A stretch of 64,000 nucleotides of DNA from Bacillus sp. ISL-37 (GTDB lineage Bacteria; Bacillota; Bacilli; Bacillales; Cytobacillaceae): positions 1 to 64,000 of the forward strand of contig NZ_JAGGQL010000003.1 in the NCBI RefSeq assembly GCF_018613315.1, in the 5' to 3' direction. The position numbers and the translations under genes were made by a program. Position 1 is the first letter of the stretch, and every line of letters begins with the position of its first letter. Below, piece after piece: positions 248-49,250 of the stretch. Below the pieces are notes generated by a model. It was not told the origin of the DNA, did not search any database, and saw nothing but the letters and a program-made list of their open reading frames with translations.

Positions 248-330
248 AGGGTGAGTTGATCCAGGAAGGATTAACCACCTCTTTTGTTGAATTCCTTATT
301 AAACTAAAGAAGTAGTAGTTAGTTCAATAA
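248..330 (+). repeat. Dispersed hairpin-plus-tail element, copy 1
   Basis: The core is GTTGATCCAGGAAGGATTAAC, an imperfect inverted repeat followed by CTTTTG. The shared tail follows (TTGAATTCCTTATTAAACTAAAGAAG). It lies between the NUDIX fragment and the next gene, on the gene strand. The hairpin plus T-run would work as a Rho-independent terminator, but the tail is not needed for termination. Confidence 0.75.
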
Positions 331-383
331 GAAATCACAAAAGTAATGACCATTTACATAAAATAAGATAAACGGAGGTTGTG

Positions 384-846
384 ATGCGAAAAGTTTATCT
401 AGATAGAACAGAATTAACTGGAGCCATAAATGTAAATATAAAAGATACTGAGGTTATACCAGCAGGTACAACAATTTATCCTATGAGTGTTTATCATAAA
501 AATGAAGAGTATCAAAAATATGCTAAAGATTATGATATTCAATTTATCTTTGACGATGATATTCCACATTTAGAATTTTATACGGTTCCATATGTAGATA
601 TTATGGCAAAAGATAGTAAAGGTGGATTTATCGGAACTGTTGGTCAACAATGTGATTTGAAAAGTGACGCACCAATTTGTTATATCAATAGGCATTTAGA
701 GTGCTTGATAATTTCTGAAAACGGAGAAGATTTTCTGAGTAATAGGAACCTGGCAAGACAACTTGAAACCCTATGATAAAATTACGGTTTATCGTTCAAA
801 AGCAGAAGCAGAAATGAAACTGGAGTTTATCGATTTGTCTGTTTGA
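384..846 (+). pseudogene. Hypothetical protein gene with a 3' frameshift
   Basis: ATG 384 is preferred over GTG 381 because GGAGG lies five bases upstream of it. The intact reading frame gives about 130 residues to TGA 774-776. The +1 frame is open across the same region and continues to TGA 844-846 with a charged, natural-looking C-terminus (WQDNLKPYDKITVYRSKAE...). This suggests a small indel near 744-750 in a gene originally of about 155 codons. I do not recognise the family; there is no signal peptide or membrane segment. A sequencing error is possible. Confidence 0.5.
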
Positions 847-878
847 TAGTCCTCCATCATTATAAATTCATATTGAAC

Positions 879-945
879 GGGAGCGTTGATCCAGTAAGGA
901 TTAATGTCTTTTTTGTTGAACTACTTATTGAACTATGCAGGATAC
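879..945 (+). repeat. Dispersed hairpin-plus-tail element, copy 2
   Basis: The core AGCGTTGATCCAGTAAGGATTAATG is followed by a run of T and then the tail TTGAACTACTTATTGAACTATGCAG. A separate perfect 9-bp inverted repeat (AAGAACGCT/AGCGTTCTT) lies just downstream at 964-989. Confidence 0.75.
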
Positions 946-1069
946 TTAACTAGTTATATTCATGAAGAACGCTGAGGATTAGCGTTCTTATTGATGTTGC
1001 TGGAAGGACATTAAGCATAATCTAGCGAATAGTTTATACCAGATAATGTATTTTAAAGGTGGATGTTAT

Positions 1070-1835
1070 ATGAGCATTAGGGAAGCAAGAGATCAAAATA
1101 AAAAAGCCTGGGAACATCGGGCCATATGAATTTTGGATTAAGAGCTATGGTACCCCAAAGGAGTTTGCCAAGCGAATTTCTGAAAATCCATCAGCACAAC
1201 TAAAAAAGCATAAAGCTTATTTTGAAAATATTACAGAAAAAAAGGTTGCAAATCTTTGTGGCTCTAATGGCAGAAAAGCTGTACCTCTTGCTTTATTAGG
1301 AGCAGAAGTGATCGTATTTGACATTTCAAAGGAAAATAAACAGTATGCACTAGAGCTGGCTGAGCACGCGAATACTTCTATCGAATATATTGTTACAGAC
1401 ATATATGAAATCGACACCAAAATATATGGTGGTCACTTTGATATGCTTTACCTGGAGGGAGGCATCTTGCACTACTTCCATGACCTCGATTGCTTCATGT
1501 CAAAGCTATTTTCTATCCTAAAAGCTGGTGGTATGTTGATTCTAAGCGACTTCCATCCATTAAGAAGATGTATTATGAAGACAACAGATGGGCAGTATCA
1601 GGTTCATGCTGCTTATTTTGATGAAGAAATACATAGTGGAGATGTAGCGTTTAAACATACCTTTGAACAACAAGAGCAAGATGCCTTCCCTGATGTTTCT
1701 GTCAGGTACTATACAATCAGCGATATCATCAATTCTTTTATCGGAGCTGGCTTTCAAATTCAAAAATTTGAAGAACATCGTGGCTGGAATGGTGAGAATA
1801 TCCCATGGGAGTTTACCATTGCTGCGAATAAATAA
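1070..1835 (+). pseudogene. Class I SAM-dependent methyltransferase, frameshifted near the 5' end
   Basis: ATG 1070 reads MSIREARDQNKKAWEHRA and then hits TGA at 1127. Dropping one base at about 1124 restores YEFWIKSYGTPKEFAKRI and an open frame to TAA 1833-1835. The restored protein, about 254 residues, has the class I methyltransferase order: motif I region VANLCGSNGRKAVPLALLGA, acidic strand VIVFDIS, then FDMLYLEGG and LKAGGMLILSDFHP. Homologues modify small molecules or unknown acceptors, so no substrate is claimed. As read, only an internal start (ATG 1308) after motif I would remain, which should be inactive. It is a standalone gene in the repeat-rich accessory stretch. Confidence 0.7.
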
Positions 1836-1880
1836 TCTAGCAAGTTACCGGAGTTCAAGTAAGAATTTATACGCTATTAG

Positions 1881-1920
1881 TTGATGTGCTTATTGAACTA
1901 TAGATGCAGTTTAGTTTAAG
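1881..1920 (+). repeat. Tail-only copy of the dispersed element
   Basis: GTGCTTATTGAACTATAGATGCAG with following TTTAGTTTAAG matches the tail of the full copies, without the hairpin core. Confidence 0.5.
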
Positions 1921-2014
1921 AAAAACTTAAATGATAATGGCAAAATTAACTTTAATAGCCTAATTATTAATTGAAGATAGCTATGTCAATTGATTAATGA
2001 ATTGGAGGATTTTT

Positions 2015-2854
2015 TTGAAAATAATTGATACTGTACCGTGTTTTTTGGATAACTATCAACCTTCTATAAATTTCTTGCGGAGCTACTATATGAAGTTTCC
2101 AGGGATTTTCAAAGAGTATTTTTTATATCATTGCAAAGACACCGAAGAAAGACATATTCAGTCAATAAATAGGTATCCTCAAGTCTTGACTTCCATCAAT
2201 TTAATCCACAACGAAATTATCACCATTATAAAAGAAGTAGAGCGAAATTACTTGGGTTTGTATCAAGTGAATTTCCCTATTGATATAAATTTAATTGTCG
2301 GTGGTTTTGGTTCTAATGCCTATTCACACAAACAAATAATACCCAATGTAACATTTGCGTTAGAAAAATTATCGCCAAAAAGTAGCCATTTGCAAGCCAT
2401 TATTGCACACGAATTAGGACACGTTACTCATAATATTATTTCAGATAAAGCGGGAAATGACTGGTCGAAAGTGGAGTGGAATAGTCCTCTTATCTGGCTA
2501 TTTCAAGAAGGGGCGGCTACACACTTTTCAAGGAAAACATCGCCTGGATTGCCCTCTTCCGTATATTTTTCATATGATGATAATGGTGATGAATGGTTAG
2601 AATTTGCATCGTCGCACAAAAAGAAGATTCAATTTGAGTTTGCAAAAGATCTTGTGAAAAGTACCCCTCAGGAAATTTTCCGTGAGTGGTTTTCCATTAA
2701 TGGCGGCAAAACTTTTGGTTTTCCTCGATTGGCATACTTTTTGGGCGATTTATTATTTCAAGAAAAAGTTTTACAAGTTGGAGAAATGAACGCCATTATA
2801 GCTTGGAAAGATCACAATTTTGAAGAAGTCGTTAATAGTTGGTTGAACTATTAA
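2015..2854 (+). CDS. Putative zinc metallopeptidase-like protein (HELGH motif)
   Basis: TTG 2015 is chosen over the upstream ATG 1997 because GGAGG lies directly before it, giving 279 residues. A central AIIAHELGHVTHN segment provides the HExxH zinc site, and a downstream FQEGAATHFS glutamate about 30 residues later could be the third ligand as in gluzincins. The layout resembles the DUF2268/YjaZ-type putative Zn-proteases of Bacillus. There is no signal peptide, so it is probably cytosolic. It stands alone, with a tail-type repeat downstream. Proteolytic activity is inferred from the motif only. Confidence 0.6.
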   Translation: MKIIDTVPCFLDNYQPSINFLRSYYMKFPGIFKEYFLYHCKDTEERHIQSINRYPQVLTSINLIHNEIITIIKEVERNYLGLYQVNFPIDINLIVGGFGSNAYSHKQIIPNVTFALEKLSPKSSHLQAIIAHELGHVTHNIISDKAGNDWSKVEWNSPLIWLFQEGAATHFSRKTSPGLPSSVYFSYDDNGDEWLEFASSHKKKIQFEFAKDLVKSTPQEIFREWFSINGGKTFGFPRLAYFLGDLLFQEKVLQVGEMNAIIAWKDHNFEEVVNSWLNY

Positions 2855-2889
2855 AAAGCACGTATAGATTCTAAGGAATATCAACAATT

Positions 2890-2938
2890 GTGAAACATTC
2901 TACTTAAACAAACGAGGCAGTTTTGTTGAAGAAGAGGC
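2890..2938 (+). repeat. Tail-only copy of the dispersed element
   Basis: The sequence TTAAACAAACGAGGCAG followed by TTTTGTTGAAGAAG matches the tail consensus; no hairpin core precedes it. Confidence 0.5.
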
Positions 2939-3416: not shown

Positions 3417-3495
3417 GGGTGCGTTGATCAGAAGGATTAACGGCCTTTTTTGTTGAAGTCCTTGTTGAACAAACGAGGCAGGTTAGCTTAAGAAG
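3417..3495 (+). repeat. Dispersed hairpin-plus-tail element, copy 3
   Basis: Core GGGTGCGTTGATCAGAAGGA then TTAACGGCC and TTTTTTG. The tail reads GAAGTCCTTGTTGAACAAAC then GAGGCAGGTTAGCTTAAGAAG. It is one of the best-preserved copies. Confidence 0.8.
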
Positions 3496-3549
3496 TAATA
3501 TAAAGAAAAAATTGTAAAAACGTATACTTTTAATAAGGAGAGAGCTTAA

Positions 3550-3846
3550 ATGATTTTAGAAGCTGTTATGATACAAGTTAATCAAGGTATGGAAGAGGAA
3601 TATGAGGACGCATTTCGAGAAGCATCAAAAATCATATCATCAATGAGAGGTTACATATCTCACGAATTACAACGATGTATGGAAGTTAAGGGAAAATATT
3701 TATTGTTGGTGAAGTGGGAAACATTTGAAGATCACACAGTTGGATTTAGACAATCCGAAGAATATCAAAAATGGAAAAAACAACTTCATCATTTCTATGA
3801 CCCGTTTCCAACAGTTGAACACTTTGAAAATGTTCAACTTTCATAG
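3550..3846 (+). CDS. Antibiotic biosynthesis monooxygenase (ABM) family protein
   Basis: 98 residues, the usual length of a single ABM ferredoxin-like domain. The start is MILEAVMIQVNQGMEEEYEDAF, followed by the typical 'I..M.GY.SHEL.R' and 'YLLLVKWETFEDHTVGFRQSEEYQKW' segments that match dimeric ABM proteins. Family members act as small-molecule or haem-degrading monooxygenases or have no known substrate; no haem-binding motif is evident, so no reaction is assigned. AAGGAGAG lies before the ATG. Single gene between repeat copies. Confidence 0.8.
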   Translation: MILEAVMIQVNQGMEEEYEDAFREASKIISSMRGYISHELQRCMEVKGKYLLLVKWETFEDHTVGFRQSEEYQKWKKQLHHFYDPFPTVEHFENVQLS

Positions 3847-3861
3847 GTTATTCAGGTAACT

Positions 3862-3926
3862 GACGCGTTAATCCAGGTACGATTTATAGAATTTCCTTAT
3901 TAAGAAGCAGTTTAGTTAAAGAAGGA
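3862..3926 (+). repeat. Dispersed element, degenerate copy 4
   Basis: GACGCGTTAATCCAGGTACG is the left arm with a decayed right arm. The tail ATTTCCTTATTAAGAAGCAG followed by TTTAGTTAAAGAAG is well conserved. Confidence 0.55.
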
Positions 3927-3949
3927 GCTTTTTATATAGGAATATCCAA

Positions 3950-5159: not shown

Positions 5160-5395
5160 CAAAACTCCGGAGAAATCTGTAGTGAATGAAAACAAAGTTA
5201 TTAGAACCTTGTGAAATAACGGTCCTTCTCGAAGAGAGTGAATTTTTATCTAAAAGATTGTGTAAACAGTTGCTTCTTCTTTTTAGAGAAAAGGGATAGA
5301 AAAGCAAAATTTGTGAACAAATGCACTTAAACTAACGGGGGCTTATGTTGAATAAGAATTATTTATATCTCAGATGCTAAAGTACTATAAATCAG
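5160..5395. other. Intergenic stretch
   Basis: No gene seen. The segment at 5310-5370 (TGTGAACAAATGCACTTAAAC, then GGGGGCTTATGTTGAATAAG) matches the leader of the variant repeat at 21751, so it is probably a decayed member of the same element family. Confidence 0.4.
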
Positions 5396-5440
5396 AAAAA
5401 TGGCGTGTCAGAACTGATGTCAGTTCACACGCCATTTTCA
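5395..5440 (-). terminator. Terminator of the PAS histidine kinase gene
   Basis: AATGGCGTGT and ACACGCCATT form the outer stem; on the minus strand this is followed by TTTTTCTG. Confidence 0.7.
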
Positions 5441-5536
5441 TTGTCATATATAAGATTCGACCCAAAAACCGAACGGTTTATACACTTATAACCGAACGGG
5501 TTGTTCTCTCCCGTAAGTGGTTTATATTTTGTTTGA

Positions 5537-6976
5537 TTAGTTAAAGTTCTCCTGGTAATTCTCATGTATAGGTAGGGTAATTGTAACGGTTGTTCCTTCA
5601 TCAACGATGCTGGAAAACTCCATTTTGCCGCCATGGTTTTTGATGATTTTCTGGCAAATCATCAAGCCGAGTCCGGTTCCTTTTTCCTTTGTGCTATAGA
5701 AGGGTTCTCCTAGTTTATTCAGACGGTCTTCTGGAATTCCTGCTCCTTGGTCCATTACCTGGATTGAAGCTTGGCCAGTTTCCTTTGATATGATAACGAA
5801 GATTTCTCCGCCTTTTGTCATTGCCTCAATAGAATTTTGGATTAAATTGATTAGCACCTGCTTTATCTTATCCGGCTCACAATCTATGTAAATGCTAGGT
5901 GAATCAGTTTTAATCTTAATAAAGGCATCTGATAGTGTTGCCTGGGGATTCAGCAAATTAACAACGCCGTTCACCAGAGAGATCAAATCTACATTCGATA
6001 GATTGGAAGCCTGAGGCTTGGCCAGAACCAGCAAGTCACCAACTATAGACTCTATACGGGCGAGCTCATCCAGGATGATTTCGGCATAATCTTCTGCTTC
6101 TTCTGCCGGGTGCTCACTCAAAAGCTGGGTAAATCCTTTTATCGCAGTCAACGGATTCCTGATTTCATGGGCGATTCCGGCTGCCATTTGTCCGATTACT
6201 GAAAGTTTTTCAGCTACCTGCAGCTGGTCCTCGGTTTTCCTTTGTTCTGTAATATCTTTAATGATGACAAGGGAAACGTCTCTGTTCTTGAAGACTGTCG
6301 GGATAAGCTGTACTTCAGCTCTCTTCGAATCATTATCTTTTCGGATTAAACTGATTTCAAGGTCACTGGAGTCCCTTGAATCCAGACTGTCTTTCAGCCG
6401 CTTATAGTCTTGTGGGTCAGTATAGTCATACAAAGACGTACCAATTATTTCATCAAAACTGGTAGCGCCCATCAATTTCTTACCCTGTTCATTAATGTAA
6501 GTCCATACACCGTTTTTTGTGATAATCCCCATTGTATCTTTGGAATGTTCAAGGAATAACCGATCTCTCTTTTGATGTTCTTTCAGCTTTTCCTGTTGAT
6601 TTACGCGATGGGTAACATCTCTTGATATGAGAACTACCTCAGTGTGTGAAAGACCCTTCGTGCTGCTGGACTCCAGCCAAAGATAATCACCTTCTTTTCT
6701 CCTGAAACGAAACATTATTTCCCCAGACTGATTAGCAGAAAAAAACTGTTCTAACTTCTCCTGGTCCAACGGATGGCAAAAACTGAAAATGGATTGATCG
6801 AACAGATCGGCTGATGTATAACCAAAGAGAGTTTCACAGGAAGGTGCCGCATATGTAAATCTGCCATCCAGAGAATGGCTGGAGAGAAAATCCTTTGCAT
6901 TCAGCAGTGCTAAGCTTATATCATCTAAGTCTTTTATATCTGGGGTATAGGCTCGTTGAGTTTCTTCTTTAATCAT
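5537..6976 (-). CDS. PAS-domain sensor histidine kinase (sporulation-kinase type)
   Basis: 479 residues, no membrane segment, so cytosolic. PAS domain 1 spans about 20-122 and PAS 2 about 135-247. The HisKA dimerisation domain has the phosphoacceptor His270 in GIAHEIRNPLTAIKGF. The HATPase_c domain follows with N-box NLIQNSIEAM, G1 DQGAGIP and G2 GTGLGLMIC. This layout is that of the KinA/KinE-type kinases that feed Spo0F. No response regulator is adjacent, as expected for an orphan phosphorelay kinase. GGGAGG precedes the ATG. The signal sensed by the PAS domains is unknown. Confidence 0.85.
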   Translation of the reverse strand: MIKEETQRAYTPDIKDLDDISLALLNAKDFLSSHSLDGRFTYAAPSCETLFGYTSADLFDQSIFSFCHPLDQEKLEQFFSANQSGEIMFRFRRKEGDYLWLESSSTKGLSHTEVVLISRDVTHRVNQQEKLKEHQKRDRLFLEHSKDTMGIITKNGVWTYINEQGKKLMGATSFDEIIGTSLYDYTDPQDYKRLKDSLDSRDSSDLEISLIRKDNDSKRAEVQLIPTVFKNRDVSLVIIKDITEQRKTEDQLQVAEKLSVIGQMAAGIAHEIRNPLTAIKGFTQLLSEHPAEEAEDYAEIILDELARIESIVGDLLVLAKPQASNLSNVDLISLVNGVVNLLNPQATLSDAFIKIKTDSPSIYIDCEPDKIKQVLINLIQNSIEAMTKGGEIFVIISKETGQASIQVMDQGAGIPEDRLNKLGEPFYSTKEKGTGLGLMICQKIIKNHGGKMEFSSIVDEGTTVTITLPIHENYQENFN

Positions 6977-7138
6977 ATTAAAAGCCTCCCTAACAATTAA
7001 TTTCTGTATACTATGTACACGCGATTTAAATCCACTTTCTATTTTACTAGACGAAAGAGAAGGGGAACGAATATTATTTTCAATTTTTGAAAAAATAGAA
7101 CTTTTATCCTGTTTTAAAAAGATCGATAAAATGATTAC

Positions 7139-7164
7139 TAAAACCTTTTTTAAAGTGGGTCGTC
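7139..7164 (+). promoter_or_regulatory. Candidate ECF sigma promoter
   Basis: TAAAAC (7139-7144), a 16-bp spacer beginning CTTTTTT, and CGTC (7161-7164) closely match the Bacillus ECF consensus TGAAAC-N16-CGTC, including the AAACCTTT extension. It lies 25 bases before the GTG of the ECF sigma gene, which suggests autoregulation. Confidence 0.6.
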
Positions 7165-7188
7165 TATAACTATGAAGGGGGAACGGTT

Positions 7189-7725
7189 GTGGATGAAATA
7201 ACAGCAGAGATGAATGAAATCGAGAATGCGGCAGAGGCGATTGATGAAATCATGACCAGATATGGGCAAGAGATTCTGCAGCTAACGTTTTCGTATGTGA
7301 AAAATAAACAAATCGCTGAGGATTTGACTCAGGAGATTTTTGTGAAATGTTATAAATCTCTTCATACATACAGCGGGAAGTCGAAGTTCCGCACCTGGCT
7401 TTGGAGGATTGCTTCAAACCATTGCAAGGACTATTTGAAAAGCTGGTACAACAAGAATGTTTTTACGACCGATTATCAGCTTATTTATGATTCAATGCAG
7501 AGTGATAGTGTCGAGCAAACCGTCATCCAGGACGAAGAAGATGGCCAGCTAGCCACCGCGGTCATGGAGCTGCCGGTTAACTACCGGGAAGTGATTTATC
7601 TTTTTTATTTTGAGGAGATGACGATCAAGGAAATCTCGGCGGTGACAGAGGTAAAAGAAAACACAATCAAGACGCGGCTTAAGCGAGCAAAAGAACTCCT
7701 GAAAGAAAGATTGGAGGAAATATAA
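7189..7725 (+). CDS. ECF-type RNA polymerase sigma factor
   Basis: 178 residues, normal ECF size. Region 2 includes AEDLTQEIFVKCYKSLHTYSGKSKFRTWLWRIASN; region 4 includes LPVNYREVIYLFYFEEMT followed by the helix-turn-helix IKEISAVTEVKENTIKTRLKRAK. GTG start with AAGGGGG upstream. It is the first gene of a tight three-gene operon (the next ATG follows the stop directly). No typical anti-sigma gene is present; the third gene's HAAS-SEDS product is the membrane partner by position. The candidate ECF promoter upstream suggests autoregulation. Confidence 0.85.
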   Translation: MDEITAEMNEIENAAEAIDEIMTRYGQEILQLTFSYVKNKQIAEDLTQEIFVKCYKSLHTYSGKSKFRTWLWRIASNHCKDYLKSWYNKNVFTTDYQLIYDSMQSDSVEQTVIQDEEDGQLATAVMELPVNYREVIYLFYFEEMTIKEISAVTEVKENTIKTRLKRAKELLKERLEEI

Positions 7726-8133
7726 ATGGAAGACCGGCTGAATAGGCTGCGAAAATCTATGGAGAAGTCCACTTTTAAAGAGTTAAGTTTTTCAGAAAAA
7801 ATGAGAAAAGAAATTCATAAACAAATAAACATGCCTGATGAAAGTGATGATGTGATTACGGTTGCAATTCTGCAGCTTCTTTTTCATGAAAAAACAGGCT
7901 ACGAATTGACCGGACTCCTAAGGTCGAGGGGCTTCAAGGTGTTTGATGACAACGAAGGCTCGTTGTACACGATGCTGCACACACTTGAACAAAAACGGTT
8001 GATTGTTTCCTGCTGGAATGAAGAAGGTGCGAAGTTCTATCAGCTCACCGACAAAGGGAGGAAGTATCTACGTAGATCGGAGAAGAATTCGGCTGCGGGT
8101 CGTATCGTCATAAAAGGATTGCTGGAGGAGTGA
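7726..8133 (+). CDS. PadR-family transcriptional regulator
   Basis: 135 residues, with a winged-helix PadR core from about 45 (VAILQLLFHEKTGYELTGLL... DDNEGSLYTMLHTLEQKRLI...GAKFYQLTDKGRKYL). The first ~40 residues are an extra charged extension not seen in minimal PadR proteins. PadR proteins are usually repressors. GGAGG overlaps the sigma gene end, so the two are translationally coupled. PadR plus HAAS-domain membrane protein is a recurrent pair in Firmicutes, with the PadR likely controlling its own operon. Confidence 0.85.
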   Translation: MEDRLNRLRKSMEKSTFKELSFSEKMRKEIHKQINMPDESDDVITVAILQLLFHEKTGYELTGLLRSRGFKVFDDNEGSLYTMLHTLEQKRLIVSCWNEEGAKFYQLTDKGRKYLRRSEKNSAAGRIVIKGLLEE

Positions 8134-8140
8134 TAGAGCT

Positions 8141-9412
8141 ATGAAGAATAGATGGAATCATTTTTTAAGTGAAGTGACAAATCATATCCGCTCCAAGGAA
8201 GCAAAGAAGTTTGTGGCATCCGAATTGGAATATCATCTTAATGAGGTGAAAAAAGAATGGGTCGGTAAAGGTTTGAGTGAGAAAGAGGCGGAGGAAAAAG
8301 CGGTTAGCCAAATGGGAAGTCCATCAAAGCTTGGACACGAGTTAAATAAACTTCATAAACCGAGGATTGACTGGTGGCTGATTAGCTTGTTGGCTATAAC
8401 AATGGCATTGAGTTTCCTGCCGCTGATCACATTGGGTGATGAGTTATCAGATGGTTATTTGGTAATGAAAGCTATTCATGTTTTACTAGGTGTGACGATT
8501 GCAGCAGCAATGATGTTTATCGATTACCGTAAATTTGAAAACAAAGGCTGGGTATTTTATTCAATCGGTGTATCGTTTTTATTCTTATTATTAACGATTC
8601 CAAATACAATCATAAATGGAGTCCCATATTTTATGATTGGCCCGTTCCAGATTGAGAGCCACTACGCACTGCCATTCTTGTTTCTGGGCTGGGCTTCATT
8701 TTTCAACAATCCGAAAATCAAACTATGGCAGCACTTTTTATTATTTGCTTTACCACTGCTTCTTTTTATGGCAGTTCCGAACTTAGCAGTTAGCTTCATT
8801 TATATCGTAATGATTTTTGTAATGATGTGGTGGAGCACGATTAGTAGAAAAACTGCAACTCTTATAACGATTACCTCGATAATGGGAGTTGCAGCATTTA
8901 TCACGTTTGCCTGGTTTACTGTTAAAGAATATCAGCTTGCAAGAATATTAGGATTCCTGAATCCTGAAAAATATCCTTCTACCTATGGTTACATGTACCT
9001 GCAGATAAAAGAACGATTGTCTTCCGCCGGCTGGTTGGGTTCTGCCGTCAAAAGTGAAGCATTGCCATTCGAACATACAGATTATGCGTTTGTAAATTTG
9101 ACCTATCATTACGGTTATTTGTTTGCGATTGGATTATTCGTGATTCTCTCACTGTTTGCGGCGAGAATTGTTATGATCTCCACACAAATTAACTCTCGGT
9201 TTGGGAACCTGTTGCTTGTAGGCGGTGTGACACTGTTCCTTGTCCAATTCATCTATAATGTTGGAATGATGATTGGCCTGCTTCCGCTTACGTCCATGTC
9301 TCTGCCATTCATCAGTTATGGATTTATCCCGATGTTATTTAATGCGTTTATTATGGGAGTCGTACTGAGTGTTTATAGGAGGAAGGATTTTATTTTAAAT
9401 AGAGCGGCTTGA
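8141..9412 (+). CDS. HAAS-domain / SEDS (FtsW-RodA-SpoVE-like) membrane protein
   Basis: 423 residues. Residues 1-70 are a HAAS-type cytoplasmic helical domain (FVASELEYHLNEVKKEWVGKGLSEKEAEEKAVSQMG). About ten transmembrane helices follow. The late loop PFEHTDYAFVNLTYHYGYLFAI and the PLTSMSLPFISYG segment are recognisable SEDS signatures. SEDS proteins polymerise or handle lipid II with a class B PBP; no such PBP is encoded here. In the HTD motif the following conserved acidic/glycine stretch of FtsW/RodA is replaced by YHYG, so polymerase activity is uncertain. Third gene of the ECF-PadR operon. Confidence 0.8.
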   Translation: MKNRWNHFLSEVTNHIRSKEAKKFVASELEYHLNEVKKEWVGKGLSEKEAEEKAVSQMGSPSKLGHELNKLHKPRIDWWLISLLAITMALSFLPLITLGDELSDGYLVMKAIHVLLGVTIAAAMMFIDYRKFENKGWVFYSIGVSFLFLLLTIPNTIINGVPYFMIGPFQIESHYALPFLFLGWASFFNNPKIKLWQHFLLFALPLLLFMAVPNLAVSFIYIVMIFVMMWWSTISRKTATLITITSIMGVAAFITFAWFTVKEYQLARILGFLNPEKYPSTYGYMYLQIKERLSSAGWLGSAVKSEALPFEHTDYAFVNLTYHYGYLFAIGLFVILSLFAARIVMISTQINSRFGNLLLVGGVTLFLVQFIYNVGMMIGLLPLTSMSLPFISYGFIPMLFNAFIMGVVLSVYRRKDFILNRAA

Positions 9413-9510
9413 TGAAGGGGGAGGAACTGTATTAATGGTTCCTCTCTTATTTTTTTGTGGAAAGTAATTTAAATTTGGATGTTATTTATACCCTGATTCG
9501 TTGTATTTCC

Positions 9511-9763
9511 GAGATTTAGGTCACCAATAGGCATTATTGGTGACCTGTTTTTCATATTTTAGGAGATTTAGGTCACCAATAGACTGTATTGGCGCCCTGT
9601 TTTTCATATTTTAGGAGATTTAGGTCACCAATAGACTGTATTGGCGCCCTGTTTTTCATATTTTAGGAGATTTAGGTCACCAATAGGCTGTATTGGCGCC
9701 CTGATTTTACGTATTTTTGAGATTTAGGTCACCAATGTAATACAACGGTGACCTTTAAATTTT
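9511..9763 (+). repeat. Tandem array, five hairpin units with an exact 52-bp period
   Basis: Units start with GAGATTTAGGTCACCAAT at 9511, 9563, 9615, 9667 and 9719, all 52 bases apart. Each unit holds an inverted repeat (GGTCACCAATA with TATTGGTGACC or the variant TATTGGCGCCC) followed by CTGTTTTTC. Every unit therefore looks like a terminator hairpin. It lies between two genes on the same strand. Confidence 0.9.
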
Positions 9764-9854
9764 TTAATACAAAATTCACAAAATAAACGTTTACCATTTT
9801 ATTCTTTTAGTGTAAAATTACACTAAATTAAAATAATTAATGGGGGTCTTCGGA

Positions 9855-11327: not shown

Positions 11328-11337
11328 ATCAATCAAA

Positions 11338-11377
11338 AATGCTAAACCAGGAAAATACTTGGTTTAGCATTTTTTGT
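11338..11377 (+). terminator. Rho-independent terminator
   Basis: AATGCTAAACCA and TGGTTTAGCATT flank a 10-base loop and are followed by TTTT. Confidence 0.8.
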
Positions 11378-11402
11378 CGTCGTCGACTTTGTAATAAAAA
11401 GA

Positions 11403-11507
11403 TTAAAAATAAAGACTAGCTATTCCGCCTACGAGTAAAAGAATGGTACCAGTTAATAGAGCTATTTTAGTTGGACGATTTGATTTATGAAAAATCCTGA
11501 AGAACAT
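11403..11507 (-). CDS. Small single-pass membrane protein (34 aa)
   Basis: ATG 11507-11505 is preceded by GAGGTG eight bases upstream. The product starts MFFRIFHKSNRPTKIALLTG and ends with a hydrophobic helix (TILLLVGGIASLYF). The basic N-terminus places the C-terminus outside. It has a convincing RBS and codon pattern but no family I can name. Confidence 0.5.
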   Translation of the reverse strand: MFFRIFHKSNRPTKIALLTGTILLLVGGIASLYF

Positions 11508-11617
11508 CCGTTAACACCTCACTTATAAAAAGTTTAGCTAATCTTAATACGATTATGTGATTGGGAAAGTTTCATGTATTACAGAAATGGGCTCTTTGCC
11601 CTATTATTCTCAATTGA

Positions 11618-11652
11618 AAAAGAGGATGGATTCCGAGTCGGAATCCATCCCT
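11618..11652 (-). terminator. Terminator after the AIM24-family gene
   Basis: GGATGGATTCC and GGAATCCATCC form a perfect 11-bp stem; the minus strand continues TCTTTTTC. Confidence 0.75.
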
Positions 11653-11664
11653 ATTTGTTCATCA

Positions 11665-12452: not shown

Positions 12453-12540
12453 AGCTTTTCCCTCCAACAAACAGATTAGCTTTTCTATTCCATTTTACAC
12501 ACATTTTGATAATTGCAGAATCCTTTTTAGAGGGATAGAT

Positions 12541-12784
12541 TTCTATAAGCCCGAATTGGGGAAGATGCATGTAAAAGGTCACATTCTATAAGCCCAAAAA
12601 CGAGCAGAAAGCAGAAAAAGGTCACATAGAAAAATTCTATAAGCCCAAAAACGAGCAGGAAGCAGAAAAAGGTCCTATAGAAAAATTCTATAAGCCCAAG
12701 AAAGAATCGGAACCAAAAAAAGGTCCTATAGAAAAGTTCTATAAGACCGAAAAGGTAAAATAGCTAAAAAGGTCACGTAGGAAC
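12541..12784 (-). repeat. Tandem array, five units with about a 51-bp period
   Basis: Units begin TTCTATAAGCCC at 12541, 12584, 12635, 12686 and 12737 (periods 43, 51, 51, 51). Each closes with AAAGGTCCTATAGAA or AAAGGTCACATAGAA, so TTCTATA and TATAGAA can pair within a unit. It lies upstream of the AIM24-family gene and downstream of the 12793 gene. The sequence differs from the 9.5-kb array, but the size, unit number and hairpin design are alike. Confidence 0.85.
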
Positions 12785-19180: not shown

Positions 19181-19222
19181 TCAATAAAGCTTGAGGCTAA
19201 AAAGAAGAGCTGATAAATAGAT

Positions 19223-19299
19223 GGGTGTGCTGATCCATGAAGGATTAACGCATTTTTTGTTTAACTCCTTATGCAACTAGGGGGGCAGGATAGCATCAG
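19223..19299 (+). repeat. Dispersed hairpin-plus-tail element, copy 5
   Basis: GGGTGTGCTGATCCATGAAGG then ATTAACGCATTTTTTG; tail TTTAACTCCTTATGCAACTA then GGGGGGCAGGATAGCATCAG. Confidence 0.7.
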
Positions 19300-19344
19300 T
19301 AAACGGATAATGAATTAGGTGATTTATAAAGTCCGAGGTGAATA

Positions 19345-19700: not shown

Positions 19701-19740
19701 ACCATATGCTTATTGAAGTAAAGGGACAGTTTAGTAGAAG
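19701..19740 (+). repeat. Tail-only copy of the dispersed element
   Basis: ATGCTTATTGAAGTAAAGGG then ACAGTTTAGTAGAAG matches the tail. Confidence 0.5.
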
Positions 19741-19788
19741 AACGGATCTAAAAATACCTTGGTTTGAACCCAATAAGGGGGTAATTAG

Positions 19789-20172
19789 ATGAAAAAGGTT
19801 GGATTTATACTAAGTATAGCAATAGTTATTATAGCTGTGTTCATATTTGTAAATAAATTATTCTATCCCTCTCTTCCAATAGAGAATTTATCAGCAAAAG
19901 AAGCAATTGAAAAACTAAAAGAATCGGAAAGTAAAATAGCAGAAATTGCAGTAGAAGGCGATTCTATTTGGTATATCACAAGTAGTGAGAACAAGGGTAT
20001 ATCGATTGCTGATGAAAATATAAAACAAATGATTGGTTCAAATGGATGGGAATTTAAAGAAAAAGATGGTGCTGGTCTGTTCTTTGAAAAAGACGGAAGG
20101 AGATTAATTGTTACCACTCAAATATGGACAGGGAATTATGTTCTCGTTAAAATCCCAGGTAATTTTAAATAA
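19789..20172 (+). CDS. Small membrane-anchored hypothetical protein
   Basis: AAGGGGGT precedes the ATG; 127 residues. N-terminal anchor (VGFILSIAIVIIAVFIFVNK) then an exported alpha/beta domain. The C-terminal IKQMIGSNGWEFKEKDGAGL stretch is followed by FFEKDGRRLIVTTQIWT, compatible with a small secreted domain. Unrecognised. Confidence 0.6.
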   Translation: MKKVGFILSIAIVIIAVFIFVNKLFYPSLPIENLSAKEAIEKLKESESKIAEIAVEGDSIWYITSSENKGISIADENIKQMIGSNGWEFKEKDGAGLFFEKDGRRLIVTTQIWTGNYVLVKIPGNFK

Positions 20173-20199
20173 TCTTGAGAGGTTTTTTAATGAACTATA

Positions 20200-20286
20200 G
20201 GGTGCGTGTGCGTTAATCCAGGGGAGGATTAACCGCCTTTTGTTGAATTCCTTATTGAACAAACGAAGCAGGTTAGCATAAGAAAG
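20200..20286 (+). repeat. Dispersed hairpin-plus-tail element, copy 6
   Basis: Perfect arms GCGTTAATCC and GGATTAACCGCC then TTTTG. The tail TTGAATTCCTTATTGAACAA then ACGAAGCAGGTTAGCATAAG is closest to the consensus. Confidence 0.8.
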
Positions 20287-20324
20287 ATTGATTAAATAAA
20301 CCCTATTTGTTAGGGAGTGATAAA

Positions 20325-20498
20325 ATGGGTAGATATATTATCGGCATTGTAATGATAATTGCAGGTATCGTGCTTTTAATGATTACTCAGGATAGGAACT
20401 TTAAAGAAGTCGAAGAGTCTATTGTTATAGCATATTCCTTTCTATTTTTCGGTTATATATATATCGTTTATAAATTAATACGTAAGCGAAAGCAATAA
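20325..20498 (+). CDS. Small membrane protein (57 aa)
   Basis: ATG 20325 follows AGGGAGTGATAAA, better than TTG 20307. Two helices (YIIGIVMIIAGIVLLMIT; ESIVIAYSFLFFGYIYIVYK) and a basic C-terminus. Unrecognised. Confidence 0.55.
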   Translation: MGRYIIGIVMIIAGIVLLMITQDRNFKEVEESIVIAYSFLFFGYIYIVYKLIRKRKQ

Positions 20499-20499
20499 A

Positions 20500-20535
20500 T
20501 CCTTATTCAACATAAGAAGCAGGTTAGCATAAGAT
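20500..20535 (+). repeat. Tail-only copy of the dispersed element
   Basis: TCCTTATTCAACATAAGAAG then CAGGTTAGCATAAG. Confidence 0.55.
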
Positions 20536-21690: not shown

Positions 21691-21750
21691 ATAATAAAAG
21701 CTCAATTTAAGATTACTGTTATCAAGAACAACAGAAATAAATAATAGTTT

Positions 21751-21815
21751 GTGAAAGAACGCACTTAAACTATAGGGTGCGAATGTTGAACAACAATATT
21801 CGCCTTTCTTTATGG
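21751..21815 (+). repeat. Dispersed element, variant copy 7
   Basis: GTGAAAGAACGCACTTAAAC leads into TATAGGGTGCGAATGTTG, with GCGAAT and ATTCGC arms and CCTTTCTTT after. It shares the start of the family but has a different stem and lacks the tail. Confidence 0.5.
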
Positions 21816-25361: not shown

Positions 25362-25467
25362 CTCTCCTTTTTAATAAATGGCTGCATAGAGCCATGAAGG
25401 AATTACAACCTTCATCGTTAACTTATTGAATCAACAAGGAGAAAGAATTACGAAGAGGTGAATAAAA

Positions 25468-25943: not shown

Positions 25944-25961
25944 CGTATTTAGAATGTATGG

Positions 25962-26030
25962 GGGTGTTGGTCCAGAAAGGATTGACGCTCTTTTTTTTAG
26001 AATTAGAGTGTAAGAACTAGTTAAGCAGCT
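25962..26030 (+). repeat. Dispersed hairpin-plus-tail element, copy 8
   Basis: GGGTGTTGGTCCAGAAAGGA then TTGACGCTCTTTTTTTT. The tail is partly decayed (AGAACTAGTTAAGCAGCT). Confidence 0.65.
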
Positions 26031-26096
26031 ATGTTTAAAAGGAACAATAGTATTATGGTAAAATATAACATGTGTGAGGTTATAAGGGGGGGACAT

Positions 26097-26581: not shown

Positions 26582-26725
26582 ATGGCTGATTTTTCAAAAG
26601 AACTGAATAGAAAAACTGAAGAGCATCCTATCCTCACAACTCTGTTCATTACGTTTTGGATTTGGCATGGATCCTATCGTCTGGGAATTAATGTTGGGGA
26701 GTTCAATGCAAATTTTAACAATTAA
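26582..26725 (+). CDS. Small protein (47 aa), possibly membrane-associated
   Basis: ATG 26582 follows GGGGACTGATTAG, 23 bases after the lipoprotein stop. The product is MADFSKELNRKTEEHPILTT then LFITFWIWHGSYRLGINV. One weak hydrophobic segment. No family recognised. Confidence 0.45.
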   Translation: MADFSKELNRKTEEHPILTTLFITFWIWHGSYRLGINVGEFNANFNN

Positions 26726-26731
26726 ACTTAA

Positions 26732-26800
26732 AGTGCGTTGACCTAGAAGGATTGATGCCTTTTTCTCGTTGAAACGTTTGAATCAATGAGAAGTTAAGTT
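26732..26800 (+). repeat. Dispersed hairpin-plus-tail element, copy 9
   Basis: AGTGCGTTGACCTAGAAGGA then TTGATGCCTTTTTC, with GTTGAAACG as tail remnant. Confidence 0.6.
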
Positions 26801-26820
26801 GCATTATTGGGAGGTACAAA

Positions 26821-27136: not shown

Positions 27137-27553
27137 TTAATCGTATATTACAGCTTTTCCTTGTTCACGTAACTTTTTTAAGAATGTAAGCATATGATTT
27201 ATTTCTTCATCGCTATGTCTTTCCCATGAACTTAATTCTGCTACTATTTTTAAAGGAGATTTAGACCTGTAAGAACGTGTTGGGTTGCCAGGGAATTTTT
27301 TGTCAGTCAGGTTTGGATCATTTTCAAAATCACCTAATGGTTCTACAATGAAAATTCTTTCTTTGGATTTAGATGTTGCTAATTCAGCACCCCATTTAGC
27401 AGCATCCAATGTTGCAGTGAAGTATATATAGTTAGATTTTTTATCTTGGTAATTTGATAGGTGTTGTGGTTCTAATAAATCTCCAATTGTTAATTCGGCT
27501 TTAGTACCATGAAAAAAAGGCCCATGATCCAAGACATCTTTTTTGTCATTCAT
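27137..27553 (-). CDS. arr: NAD-dependent rifampin ADP-ribosyltransferase
   Basis: ATG 27553 is eight bases after AGAGGTGG; 138 residues, normal Arr length. The family signature is nearly complete: FFHGTKAELTIGDLL, YIYFTATLDAAKWGAELA, RIFIVEPLGDFENDPNLTDK then KFPGNPTRSYRS. Arr transfers ADP-ribose from NAD to the 23-hydroxyl of rifamycins, inactivating them; H of FHGTKA, Y of YFTAT and D of NDPN are the expected active-site residues. It is a single gene on the minus strand within an otherwise plus-strand accessory stretch, with no mobile-element genes next to it. Confidence 0.9.
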   Translation of the reverse strand: MNDKKDVLDHGPFFHGTKAELTIGDLLEPQHLSNYQDKKSNYIYFTATLDAAKWGAELATSKSKERIFIVEPLGDFENDPNLTDKKFPGNPTRSYRSKSPLKIVAELSSWERHSDEEINHMLTFLKKLREQGKAVIYD

Positions 27554-27559
27554 ATTCAT

Positions 27560-27782: not shown

Positions 27783-27852
27783 GGGTGCGTTAATCCAGGA
27801 AGGATTAACCGCCTTTTTTATTGAATTCCATAGTAAACAAACGACGCAGGAA
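27783..27852 (+). repeat. Dispersed hairpin-plus-tail element, copy 10
   Basis: GGGTGCGTTAATCCAGGAAG then GATTAACCGCCTTTTTT: perfect GCGTTAATCC/GGATTAACCGC arms. Tail TTGAATTCCATAGTAAACAA then ACGACGCAGG. Confidence 0.8.
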
Positions 27853-27902
27853 TGTAGAATATGGAGAGTGAAATAAGGATCTGACCTTTAAGGAGGCTTA
27901 AT

Positions 27903-28091: not shown

Positions 28092-28195
28092 ACGGTATAA
28101 TAAAGCTAATTCTGTGAAGAAATACACTTAAACATCCAGCACCTTTTCCTTTATAAGATTGCTTATTTTTTTGAAATGGAAAATAATAAGTTGGA

Positions 28196-33476: not shown

Positions 33477-33519
33477 AAAAAGCTGAACCTATGAATGAAA
33501 ATTAGGTTCGGCTTTTTGC
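33477..33519 (+). terminator. Hairpin terminator
   Basis: AAAAAGCTGAACCTA and TAGGTTCGGCTTTTT, with T-run. The same GCTGAACC stem is used at 37461 and 52193. Confidence 0.7.
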
Positions 33520-34473: not shown

Positions 34474-34569
34474 TAAAGTATGAGTAACACAATCGTAGTA
34501 AGATAGATTATGAACCAATCATTTGGGTAGATTCAAATTATTTAGTTGTCGAAGATGAGACAATTATGA

Positions 34570-44349: not shown

Positions 44350-44377
44350 GATAAATAACGGTCTGTTCACAAGCAAA

Positions 44378-44415
44378 GGGTGCTTTGATCCATTTTGGGT
44401 TAAGCACCTTTTTGT
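44378..44415 (+). repeat. Dispersed element, copy 11 (hairpin only)
   Basis: GGGTGCTTTGATCCATTTTG then GGTTAAGCACCTTTTT: GGTGCTT/AAGCACC arms. Confidence 0.65.
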
Positions 44416-45919: not shown

Positions 45920-45957
45920 GGTGCGTTGATCTCAATTGATTAACGGCCTTTTTTTAT
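45920..45957 (+). repeat. Dispersed element, copy 12 (hairpin only)
   Basis: GGTGCGTTGATCTCAATTGA then TTAACGGCCTTTTTTT. Confidence 0.65.
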
Positions 45958-45984
45958 ACAAACAGAGATTGGTTGAACAAGCAA

Positions 45985-46846: not shown

Positions 46847-46910
46847 AAGCATTGATCCAGCGCAGGATTAGTGCTTTTTCTTATTATGCAATCGAAGCAG
46901 GTTAACAGGT
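46847..46910 (+). repeat. Dispersed hairpin-plus-tail element, copy 13
   Basis: AAGCATTGATCCAGCGCAGG then ATTAGTGCTTTTTC; tail TTATTATGCAATCGAAGCAG then GTTAACAGG. Confidence 0.65.
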
Positions 46911-47924: not shown

Positions 47925-47984
47925 TCTATAAAACAGATTAGTAAATATCTCCTATAAATATAATATAATTCACTCAGAAGCTAT

Positions 47985-48190
47985 AATTGTTGGAAATAAA
48001 GAAAATCTCAGCTCGTGCCAGCATCAATAGAGAAACCCACCCTCACCAATTAAGCCATATCTATGCCACCCATTTATTTAACAATGGAGCACCAGTAGAA
48101 GTTATTCAAAGCCTTTTGAGCCACGTCAACTTGACCATCCTCAGTTCGACCGACCGAAGGCACCAAATCAAACCTATTTCATCCGGATAA
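47985..48190 (+). pseudogene. Tyrosine recombinase (phage-integrase type) remnant
   Basis: The frame reads [20 protein letters not shown] then [20 protein letters not shown] and SHVNL. This is the catalytic C-terminal region of XerC/D-type recombinases (HxLRH...ATHLLNNGA...VIQSLLGH). The box HPHQLSH has Ser in place of the catalytic Arg, and the region bearing the nucleophile Tyr is frameshifted (DRRHQI follows in a wrong frame). The N-terminal two-thirds are missing. It is therefore an inactive fragment within the third repeat-rich stretch. Confidence 0.7.
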
Positions 48191-48334
48191 GTTCGATAAG
48201 TACTTTTCTCTATGTATACATAAAAAGATTTCTGTTCCAGGAATGGATTTTTTTAATTGAAGTATCGACTTAGATTAGTTCATGAAGAAGAGAAACTAAC
48301 TGTTTATATCTTTACATTGGGAGAGGTAATTAAT

Positions 48335-48460
48335 TTGACGATAATTATTGGAATAGCTGTAGTTATAACCATTTTTTCAATAGAAGTACAGCTGAGGAAA
48401 CTAAATAAAACAAACCAAATGATAGTTGAACTATTAAACGAAATTAAGAATAAGGGATGA
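48335..48460 (+). CDS. Small single-pass membrane protein (41 aa)
   Basis: TTG 48335 is preceded by GGAGAGGTAATTAA, better than the frame start 48257. One helix (TIIIGIAVVITIFSIEVQL) and a charged C-terminal helix (RKLNKTNQMIVELLNEIKNK). Unrecognised. Confidence 0.5.
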   Translation: MTIIIGIAVVITIFSIEVQLRKLNKTNQMIVELLNEIKNKG

Positions 48461-48474
48461 CTAAGTTAATTAAC

Positions 48475-48550
48475 TGGTGCTTTGATTGAGATGGATTAAC
48501 GGACTTCTTGTTAAGTCCTTATTAAAATAACAGGCAGTTTAGTTGAATAA
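48475..48550 (+). repeat. Dispersed hairpin-plus-tail element, copy 14
   Basis: TGGTGCTTTGATTGAGATGG then ATTAACGGACTTCTTG; tail TTAAGTCCTTATTAAAATAA then CAGGCAGTTTAGTTGAATAAG. Confidence 0.7.
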
Positions 48551-48587
48551 GCATTTGTCTTCACAAGAGGTTTGGAGGTTTAAACAA

Positions 48588-49217
48588 ATGAATCTCAATG
48601 GTGTTAGTGGTTTAATTTTAAGCCCTTCAGCTACTGAAATTGATATTGAAATAGTAGAAAAAAGGTTGAATACTATACTTCCTATTTCATATAAAGAATT
48701 ATTACAGGCTTCTAATGGTTTAGCAACTAATGAGGGAATAATCATTTACGGTACCAATGATATTCTCGAACGTAATGAAACATGGGAAACACAGGAGTAC
48801 GCACCTGATTTTGTCTCTATCGGTGATGATAGTGGTGGAAGAGTTCTTCTGATGTCTCTGAGTGATAAAGAGGAAATATTGATTGTAGATTCTGGAGACA
48901 TGACTCCTGATCATGCCGAATTAATTTCAACAAATCTAATTCAATGGGTTACTAATGGTTTGAGAATTGATTTAAAAGAAACATCATGTATCGATTGGTC
49001 AGAAAATTGTAAATTAGTTGTTGTAAACATTCAAGACGGAGGATTAAAAGACTTAATTAAAATTAAAGCGATATTGGGAATAAATATGCCTACTTCTGAA
49101 TTACTTAAAATGTCTAAAAGTTTACCATTTGTACTTACCCAGGAAATTCCTTATGGTAAGGCAAAGAAATTAATTGAGAAATTGGGAGACCTTAATGTAA
49201 AACTAGAATTCCTATGA
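48588..49217 (+). CDS. SUKH (SMI1/KNR4) protein with L7/L12-like C-terminal domain
   Basis: ATG 48588 follows GGAGGTTTAAACAA; 209 residues. The N-terminal ~130 residues carry the SUKH-1 pattern (EIDIEIVEKRLNTILPISYK then ELLQASNGL..., IGDDSGGRVLLMSL). The last ~55 (KDLIKIKAILGINMPTSELL then KMSKSLPFVLTQEIPYGKAK and KLIEKLGDLNVKLEF) resemble the ribosomal L7/L12 C-terminal fold. SUKH proteins are often immunity proteins against polymorphic toxins; no toxin gene is adjacent. The fusion itself is a known theme in immunity-type small proteins, but I infer it by eye. Confidence 0.65.
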   Translation: MNLNGVSGLILSPSATEIDIEIVEKRLNTILPISYKELLQASNGLATNEGIIIYGTNDILERNETWETQEYAPDFVSIGDDSGGRVLLMSLSDKEEILIVDSGDMTPDHAELISTNLIQWVTNGLRIDLKETSCIDWSENCKLVVVNIQDGGLKDLIKIKAILGINMPTSELLKMSKSLPFVLTQEIPYGKAKKLIEKLGDLNVKLEFL

Positions 49218-49250
49218 CTATTAAACTAAAGAAGCAGTAATGTTTAACAA
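49208..49250 (+). repeat. Tail-only copy of the dispersed element
   Basis: ATTCCTATGACTATTAAACT then AAAGAAGCAGTAATG resembles the tail of copy 1 at 281-320. Confidence 0.4.

Follow-up and report, generated by a model that had tools for sequence, protein, structure and literature searches.

The attC sites of integrons fold as single strands, carry R and L boxes and follow the GTTRRRY rule. In the pdif or Xer modules of Acinetobacter, small genes lie between short tyrosine-recombinase core sites, each made of two arms and a spacer. The integron integrase IntI is described as having a specific insertion in its catalytic domain (PMC8138268). IntegronFinder 2.0 found one complete integron (Limnochorda) and a few CALINs in Firmicutes, where integrons are called very rare (PMC9024848). 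Our repeat shares with bcr1 and other Bacillus families the nature of a short stem-loop repeat (72-167 bp in those families); the cited description of those families, on which this comparison rests, mentions no link to gene cassettes (PMC2267715). Here we describe repeats which, judging from sequence comparisons and with a probability of about 0.8, are the recombination sites of a mobile gene-cassette system with a dedicated Xer-like integrase. Our literature search found no cassette arrays or such repeat described for Bacillaceae, which is weak evidence of novelty, because it covered titles and abstract openings, with preprints and most subscription journals outside its coverage.

The window is a stretch of 64,000 nucleotides from Bacillus sp. 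ISL-37 (GCF_018613315.1, contig NZ_JAGGQL010000003.1, positions 1 to 64,000, forward strand). An original prediction from the bare sequence had proposed a dispersed element in three intergenic clusters with a single orientation, and our searches agree with it. The core GCGTTGATCCAGGAAGGATT has 6 matches at up to 3 mismatches and the tail pattern has 8, each against 0.02 expected, and a 21-mer tail pattern gave 7+2 matches against 0+0 for the reversed control. An iterated profile search found about 12 full or near-full copies, together with hairpin-only and tail-dominated ones, and every match with E <1 lies on the + strand; the elements may also be co-oriented with replication. Tail-dominated copies are at 1855, 2898, 19706, 20497, 49211 (E 0.13) and 48253, the last not significant in the profile scan with its E of 6.1, and two more weak matches are at 4205 (E 0.28) and 46508 (E 0.26). 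The regions predicted to be free of copies are so: no profile match at 5.5-19, 28.2-44.3 or 49.3-64 kb was better than E 2.9. Related end motifs absent from the earlier list lie at 5312-5342, 21750-21780 and 28113-28133. A T-box is the sole match to known RNA families in the window at gathering scores. The features are given below; a full element is a putative terminator hairpin with a palindromic core site, found by profile and covariance search unless stated otherwise, and the cassette genes are candidates.

248..335, +, full element
381..776, +, cassette gene without Pfam match; block recurs in other genomes and has a second own-genome copy on contig 49
877..962, +, full element
1308..1835, +, cassette gene, methyltransferase-like (Pfam search)
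1884..1922, +, tail-only junction: core site, no terminator module recognisable (profile match at 1855)
1997..2854, +, cassette gene without match in the Pfam search
2889..2933, +, tail-only junction: left-end motif TGTGAA..CTTAAAC fused directly to spacer and right arm (profile match at 2898)
3417..3499, +, full element, the genome's best match
3550..3846, +, cassette gene with ABM domain (Pfam search)
3860..3928, +, full but shortened element
5312..5342, +, left-end motif TGTGAA..CTTAAACTAACGGG, closing the first array on its 3' side; return to backbone synteny
19221..19306, +, full element
19704..19742, +, tail-only junction (tail pattern; profile match at 19706)
19789..20172, +, cassette gene within block 19709-20271, which other genomes also have
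20198..20289, +, full element (profile match at 20207)
20497..20535, +, tail-only junction (profile search)
21750..21815, +, element whose left end is the shared one but whose hairpin sequence differs, GCGAATGTTGAACAACAATATTCGC
25379..25439, +, degenerate full element (profile search)
25959..26046, +, full element
26723..26815, +, full element (profile match at 26733)
27137..27559, -, Arr-family gene (rifampin ADP-ribosyltransferase model); block also in two other genomes
27783..27867, +, full element
28113..28133, +, left-end motif, 3' end of the second array
44376..44414, +, hairpin-only copy (profile search)
45920..45958, +, hairpin-only copy (profile search)
46849..46907, +, full element, shortened
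47987..48190, +, broken remnant of a putative cassette integrase, C-terminal part, tyrosine recombinase (PF00589, 37.2 bits)
48248..48286, +, weak tail-only junction (profile match at 48253, E 6.1; covariance E 0.95)
48474..48555, +, full element
48543..49217, +, cassette gene, SUKH-1 (SMI1/KNR4) family (Pfam search)
49211..49250, +, tail-only junction, end of the third array (tail pattern; profile E 0.13)

A covariance-model scan had been proposed as a check. Over the whole genome (62 contigs, 4,739,322 bases) it gave 34 matches at E<=1, of which 16 fall in the window. With the threshold set to E<0.01 there are 26 matches, 14 in the window and the other 12 on contigs 33 (161-182 kb), 16, 60, 26, 18, 55 and 1. 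Weak copies may be missed in these counts, because 150 of 3157 candidates were scored. Among 249 genomes of the order, 105 have element matches, 41 have three or more elements and 52 have the integrase at E<=1e-60. The arrays of one genome, G135, reach 40 element matches within about 30 kb, partial ones counted, and in one fetched set all copies inside each locus share one strand. The longest ORF follows the element direction in 171 of 201 inter-element intervals (median spacing 647 bp); it is on the opposite strand in 27, which counts against a cassette model. No Pfam match was found for 12 of 20 proteins examined. Near-identical cassettes, at raw identities of 92-98%, are found in different genera: Psychrobacillus and Ferdinandcohnia share one at 93% over 538 bp and Paenisporosarcina and Psychrobacillus one at 92% over 1070 bp, both with both ends in elements, and Viridibacillus and Psychrobacillus share one at 98% over 369 bp, of which a single end falls in an element.

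The sequence of the conserved tail, CTTATTGAACTAAC-GAAGCAG-GTTAGTTGAAGAAG, forms an imperfect palindrome, in which a 7-bp spacer GARGCAG (model positions 63-69) separates the left arm TTRAACTAAC from the right arm GTTAGTTGAAGAAG. The arms are complementary at 0.64 within a copy and equally at 0.64 between copies, against 0.22-0.41 when shifted. We rejected an RNA structure under pairing selection, because pairing within copies is no better than between them; a conserved palindrome without covariation fits a protein-binding site. The terminator module consists of GGGTGCG-hairpin-TTTTTT-GTTGAATTCC-left arm. That the hairpin can terminate transcription, as was predicted, is plausible: the region 19.0-28.5 kb has 15 terminator-like sites where 5.0 would be expected, and four of the 15 sit at elements.

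Comparison of genomes at the repeat borders, which the original prediction had proposed, shows single genes, each with one repeat, in differing neighbourhoods, with homology that starts or stops in the repeat. At elements, 32 of 382 comparisons preserve the neighbours on both sides; at positions of the same loci without an element, 1009 of 1435 do so, counted over our genome and 13 related ones with pairs taken from both sides and locus edges included in both groups. In direct flank alignments of 188 full copies, 137 pairs have a homologous flank and 17 keep both. Elements reach over 3.6% of the DNA, and 126 of 277 oriented HSPs begin or stop inside an element in each of the two loci; many of the remaining ends are backbone or locus edges. 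Copies were dropped when they did not span model positions 12-72 (12-64 in other genera) or had a flank of <120 bases, pairs when <60 flank bases aligned, and BLAST matches below 80-82% identity or 200-250 bases. The HSP count also leaves out matches of >3000 bases and two of opposite orientation. The pairs compared here and below are not independent.

Where the downstream gene is shared, homology changes inside the 7-bp spacer or immediately behind it. The optimum is model position 71 (43 pairs scored; 18 gene families among 44 pairs), and the log-likelihood falls from there by 13 at position 70, 16 at 72, 30 at 65, 35 at 73 and 143 at 62. The hairpin module goes with the downstream gene in none of the 43 pairs, and in 40 the similarity of the module is at family level. 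When the upstream gene is shared (29 families among 76 pairs), positions 70-82 are not carried in 58 of 74 pairs, and the hairpin module is carried in 27 and replaced in 32. The upstream switch is mixed, which counts against our reading: the summed optimum is position 4, or 19 when the closest pairs are taken, which is close to the first spacer and not the second. The same holds for 5' BLAST ends, 32 of 72 of which lie around the first site too, although similarity within the element family can cause these. A set conditioned on BLAST ends, with 31 upstream borders and 65 downstream ones that are likewise not independent, shows the change of identity across 63-69; positions 64-65 agree with neither side, as expected of an exchanged overlap. 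In genera outside Mesobacillus the switch is blurred, a further point against: the best downstream column is 73 with columns from 56 within 14 log units (25 pairs; the R2 arm starts at 61), and the downstream gene takes the hairpin module along in 2 pairs and not in 18. The best upstream switch there is column 12 (28 pairs). The best-resolved recombining site appears to be the tail and not the hairpin; with its palindrome around a 7-bp spacer, the tail has the form of a recombinase core site. A crossover at the GGGTGC spacer, the left edge of the hairpin module, is real in the counts. Since some upstream-shared genes switch there, the terminator hairpin itself would be exchangeable. The predicted cassette-like layout is supported by the neighbour breaks, with the key site moved from the hairpin to the tail. 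A point against the cassette model is that the first site (GGGTGC) has a right half unlike the right arm, which leaves its recombination without an explanation.

The arrays are accompanied by Xer-like tyrosine recombinases of about 284 aa. The remnant in the window has two uninterrupted relatives elsewhere in the same genome, and a 284-aa integrase copy is on contig 49. The 39 rows of this clade (38 loci) separate with support 100/100 from the two Xer proteins of housekeeping type that these genomes also encode, in a tree that contained no IntI. The clade belongs to the tyrosine recombinase superfamily, with a PF00589 match and the catalytic R-K-H-H-Y in 39 of 39 aligned sequences and the second R in 37. 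An element (E<0.05) lies within 2.4 kb of the integrase in 21 of 28 loci, a count that leaves out, from 32 loci, one duplicate and three relatives at 33-40% identity with no element nearby; in the control, 4 of 37 own-genome DNA pieces had an element near, three of the four from loci fetched for a match. The other 7 of 28 loci count against the link. Of these 21 loci, 19 carry the integrase antisense to the elements and 2 carry it in line with them. In one sub-clade an element begins about 25 bp or less past the end of the integrase gene in 3 of 5 loci, and the array continues in the same direction. Among 24 rows, 14 (from 13 distinct loci) have GGGTGC after the integrase 3' end, and the DNA beyond differs between most loci. 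The integrase occurs in 22 of the 41 genomes with three or more elements against 30 of 208 others (Fisher p 2.6e-7). Against the link, 19 of the 41, G016 among them, have no integrase detectable at E<=1e-60, and G010 has arrays and yields none even at E<=1e-40. Integrase loss, as in integrase-less attC clusters, or another enzyme would fit these genomes.

Like integrons, these loci line up small genes, mainly one by one and in a common orientation, with a site of the same family behind every gene, and the single genes are shuffled with borders at the right part of the site. Both systems have an integrase gene at the array, integrase-less arrays, large arrays and cassettes common to different genera. 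The sites and enzymes differ. The site described here is a palindromic core with a 7-bp spacer and no covariation of its arms, and these arms (AACTAAC/GTTAGTT) are each one base off the GTTRRRY rule; the original prediction had noted a misfit to this attC rule for the core. Its statement that no integrase of the integron class is present holds for IntI (TIGR02249 scores 89.6 bits against a cut-off of 265, and the protein aligns to XerD 1a0p without a long insertion), but an integrase of the Xer-like kind is in the genome. It is mostly antisense to the elements, and the cassette genes carry terminator-like hairpins, which argue against a common promoter Pc. The closest curated models are XerA (206 bits), XerC (199) and XerD (199), and XerD 1a0p is among the closest solved structures (E 6e-31); the protein falls below the curated cut-offs of all three. 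With pdif modules the loci share the pattern of small genes bounded by arm-spacer-arm core sites; they differ in the dedicated recombinase clade in place of host XerC/XerD, the long one-direction arrays, the terminator module and an apparently different site.

Other explanations have to be weighed. One is a MITE-like non-autonomous element: the mobile entity would be the ~90-bp unit alone, with GGGTGC and GARGCAG as its ends, derived by deletion from an integrase-bearing unit that takes the same slot. It would explain why integrase unit and hairpin module both begin with GGGTGC after a CTTAAACTAAC-type arm, and why the module is replaced independently of the upstream gene. We nevertheless consider it unlikely, as no locus among those fetched has its flanks joined without an element, and insertion of a short unit alone does not make whole genes swap neighbours at the GARGCAG spacer. 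It could hold alongside a cassette system, as the hairpin module may be a gene-less mini-cassette.

The two housekeeping Xer proteins could also recombine the sites in the manner of pdif modules, with the third recombinase a passenger. The array genomes lacking a detectable dedicated integrase speak for this, as do the two Xer genes in all eight genomes examined (one is broken in G015; the labels XerC and XerD are our own assignments). The 7-bp spacer, arms that seem unlike the Bacillus dif arms and the array-linked clade with its catalytic residues kept make it quite unlikely. The spread of terminators by recombination, also raised originally, is very unlikely in the form of ordinary terminator repeats that anchor RecA recombination and so shuffle the genes between them. 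Element interiors are intergenic, about 75% identical on average and could serve as anchors, but general repeat recombination predicts no borders at fixed spacers. Nor does it account for a tail palindrome conserved where termination has no need of it, for the single strand within each locus of the one fetched set or for the linked recombinase clade.

We favour the cassette system. A cassette would consist of the right arm GTTAGTTGAAGAAG, usually one small gene, an optional terminator module and the left arm TTRAACTAAC, and adjacent cassettes would join at the GARGCAG spacer, with the arms on either side forming the imperfect palindrome. The integrase, encoded in or heading the arrays, is the probable enzyme that binds the arms and exchanges strands across the spacer, and cassettes would be excised as circles and inserted at other sites. 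Separate exchange of the terminator module through an additional crossover spacer, GGGTGC, at its left edge would explain the full and tail-only copies. As many genes end in a terminator, the cassettes probably have their own promoters and not a shared one.

It is fairly likely that the order Caryophanales/Bacillales has evolved its own, independent counterpart of integrons, in a phylum considered nearly free of them. Its integrases would form a separate Xer-derived clade, encoded on chromosomes as well as plasmids; its core sites would be double-stranded and tolerant of heterology, its terminators would act as mini-cassettes open to exchange, and its cassette pool would be common to several genera. 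Plasmids carry integrase relatives at 62-76% identity, and mercury-resistance genes lie about 3 kb from one of these. Together with the Arr-family cassette gene, this suggests that the pool bears on accessory-gene movement among Gram-positive bacteria. The site and integrase models allow direct searches for the system. If the reading is true, nature has a second way of capturing genes, built on another recombinase, and the system would account for part of the small-gene accessory content of bacilli.

Each of the three small-gene arrays in the window carries copies of one repeat family, all on the plus strand and between genes, as the original prediction had claimed. Backbone DNA lies between the arrays and shows synteny with related genomes; the window is bases 1-64000 of contig 33 in a 4.74-Mb genome assembled in 62 contigs. 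A Pfam scan of the cargo finds methyltransferase, ABM, zinc dehydrogenase, class V aminotransferase, LysE, Arr, metallo-beta-lactamase fold and SUKH proteins, and leaves 12 of the 20 window proteins scanned without a match. Arr genes are known as integron cassettes too.

Features of the window
About 0-5.3, 19.2-28.1 and 44.4-49.3 kb: small-gene arrays
381-776: gene without Pfam match; its block has a further copy on contig 49 of the ISL-37 genome and is also present in six others
2889-2933: element copy without hairpin, one of several such; the left-end motif TGTGAA..CTTAAAC directly joins spacer and right arm
5310-12467: backbone, syntenic with related genome G018
9454-9765: 52-bp unit in five tandem copies
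12540-12753: tandem repeat with a unit of about 51 bp that starts with ATTCTATAAGCCC
21750-21815: element copy with a different hairpin behind the same left end, as in some other copies
27137-27559, strand opposite to the surrounding cassettes: Arr-family gene (157 bits); its block also occurs in two other genomes
28197-34478: backbone, syntenic with related genome G005
33251-33347: CAACGGGGATTAA, repeats spaced 21 bp; related pair at 36906
47987-48190: integrase remnant of 67 aa
55709-55921: T-box leader (104.8 bits)

The element consensus derives from 344 profile matches in the fetched loci, some of them overlapping; 216 are full-length and 184 were profiled after duplicate removal. Its left part consists, in order, of TTAAACTAAC, GGGTGCG and a hairpin such as TTGATCC-AGGAA-GGATTAACGCC. 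The hairpin is followed by a T-run, GTTGAATTCC and CTTATTGAACTAAC-GAAGCAG-GTTAGTTGAAGAAG, an imperfect palindrome with a 7-bp asymmetric spacer at its centre. Complementarity between the arms of this tail amounts to 64% of positions, whether the two arms come from one copy or from different copies, and to 22-41% when they are shifted. This speaks against a stem under pairing selection and for a conserved palindrome as a putative binding site. All copies lie on one strand within every fetched locus of the related genomes that has matches; in other genera both strands are present in part of the loci. Along the single-contig chromosomes of G018, G015, G016 and G019 the element strand switches between chromosome parts with few exceptions (in G018, plus at 0.19-2.0 Mb and minus at 2.65-3.5 Mb, with two exceptions), which suggests that the elements are co-oriented with replication.

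The strain comparison at repeat borders that had been proposed for this DNA shows that neighbours change at the elements. The comparison covered 57 loci, either arrays or their neighbours, from the ISL-37 genome and 13 relatives, plus the window. Both neighbours were kept in only 32 of 382 comparisons at elements versus 1009 of 1435 at randomly chosen sites without an element in these loci, with pairs counted from both sides and locus edges kept in both groups. In G005, for instance, a cassette whose gene we read from its sequence as lipoprotein-like lies between two cassettes that have only a short gene-less stretch between them in G018. When the flanks of 188 full copies were aligned directly, the common gene was the upstream one alone in 76 pairs and the downstream one alone in 44, and 17 pairs had both in common. 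In 13 of these 17 the identity of the element interior reaches 90% or more, which argues against simple fast decay of the elements.

Where the downstream gene is common, the best-supported point at which identity rises from family level to gene level is position 71 of the element model, just past the spacer at 63-69, and support drops steeply before 65 and after 72; pair by pair, the switch falls at 63-69 in 15 of 44 and at 70-73 in 21. The hairpin module moves with the downstream gene in none of 43 pairs. Of 74 pairs with a common upstream gene, 27 have kept the module with it and 32 have had the module replaced, and positions 70-82 are left behind in 58. From these switch positions and module counts we conclude that there are two crossover regions, at the spacers GARGCAG and GGGTGC, and that the putative terminator module is exchangeable alone. 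In another set, one conditioned on BLAST ends, positions 64-65 match neither flank, which would fit a spacer that serves as the exchanged overlap. In other genera the switch position is blurred, and both neighbours are kept in 5 of 94 pairs, each of which lies within a single locus.

Searching eight genomes with PF00589 yielded two housekeeping-type Xer proteins (which we label XerC and XerD), phage-type integrases and a third type, about 284 aa long, which lies at arrays in five of them (G000, G018, G015, G019 and G008). This search did not find the third type in G016, G010 or G007, and G007 has no elements either. One housekeeping-type Xer gene (G015:C1:1206808-1207328) appears to be in two pieces with in-frame stops, by mutation or sequencing error. 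Besides the window remnant, the ISL-37 genome has two uninterrupted copies of the third type, on contigs 18 and 49. Among NCBIfam models this integrase scores nearest XerA/XerC/XerD, below every cut-off, and falls far below that of the integron integrase model. In a tree built without IntI, 39 integrase rows from 38 loci form one clade (support 100/100) with retained catalytic residues, apart from the two housekeeping-type Xer proteins of G000 and G018.

An element lies nearby in 21 of 28 integrase loci, and by our own reading integrase and elements lie on opposite strands in 19 of the 21; near three relatives of 33-40% identity no element was found. The 3' end of the Mesobacillus-type integrase abuts the GGGTGC spacer, and the DNA beyond differs between most loci. 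Another sub-clade has the integrase heading the array in the same direction; the distance to an element is about 25 bp or less in three of five loci and 2.9-4.3 kb in the remaining two. One array of this sub-clade (L216-L217, G135:C1:3012000-3048000) is very large, with 40 element matches, partial ones included, on one strand over about 30 kb.

Elements occur in 19 of 21 genomes of the genus set, which we take as Mesobacillus, and an integrase match (E<=1e-40) in 15, several broken and one only 40% identical. Order-wide, with at most 17 elements scored per genome, 105 of 249 genomes have an element match (E<=0.001) and 41 at least three elements; the integrase is present in 52, and together with at least three elements in 22 (odds ratio 6.9). 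Where a distant genome has a lone element match, this may be a terminator that matches by chance. A 26-base exact pattern was found in 67 stretches, in Psychrobacillus, Sporosarcina, Paenisporosarcina, Viridibacillus, Neobacillus, Mesobacillus and others. Different genera contain near-identical cassettes, at a raw DNA identity of 92-98% across 369-1070 bp. Plasmid-borne integrase relatives of 62-76% identity are found in Sporosarcina, Cytobacillus, Niallia and Peribacillus and on one plasmid labelled Arthrobacter citreus; a phage collection gave only remote relatives (<37%). On the 266-kb plasmid pSP10-266k of Sporosarcina psychrophila (L226), about 3 kb separate the relative (75.6%) from merA/merR; GNAT and peptidase genes are also near.

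We propose that the integrase, as the probable enzyme, would bind both arms of two core sites and exchange strands across the 7-bp spacer, by which a cassette would be excised or inserted, presumably with circular cassettes as intermediates. Mismatched spacers are apparently tolerated. The hairpins would insulate the cassettes, and promoters should therefore lie within them. Integrons in Firmicutes are called very occasional in one published survey (PMC9024848) and are merely given as detected in another (PMC8618304). The cassette system probably works like an integron, but it differs from integrons in those of their defining enzyme and site features that were tested.
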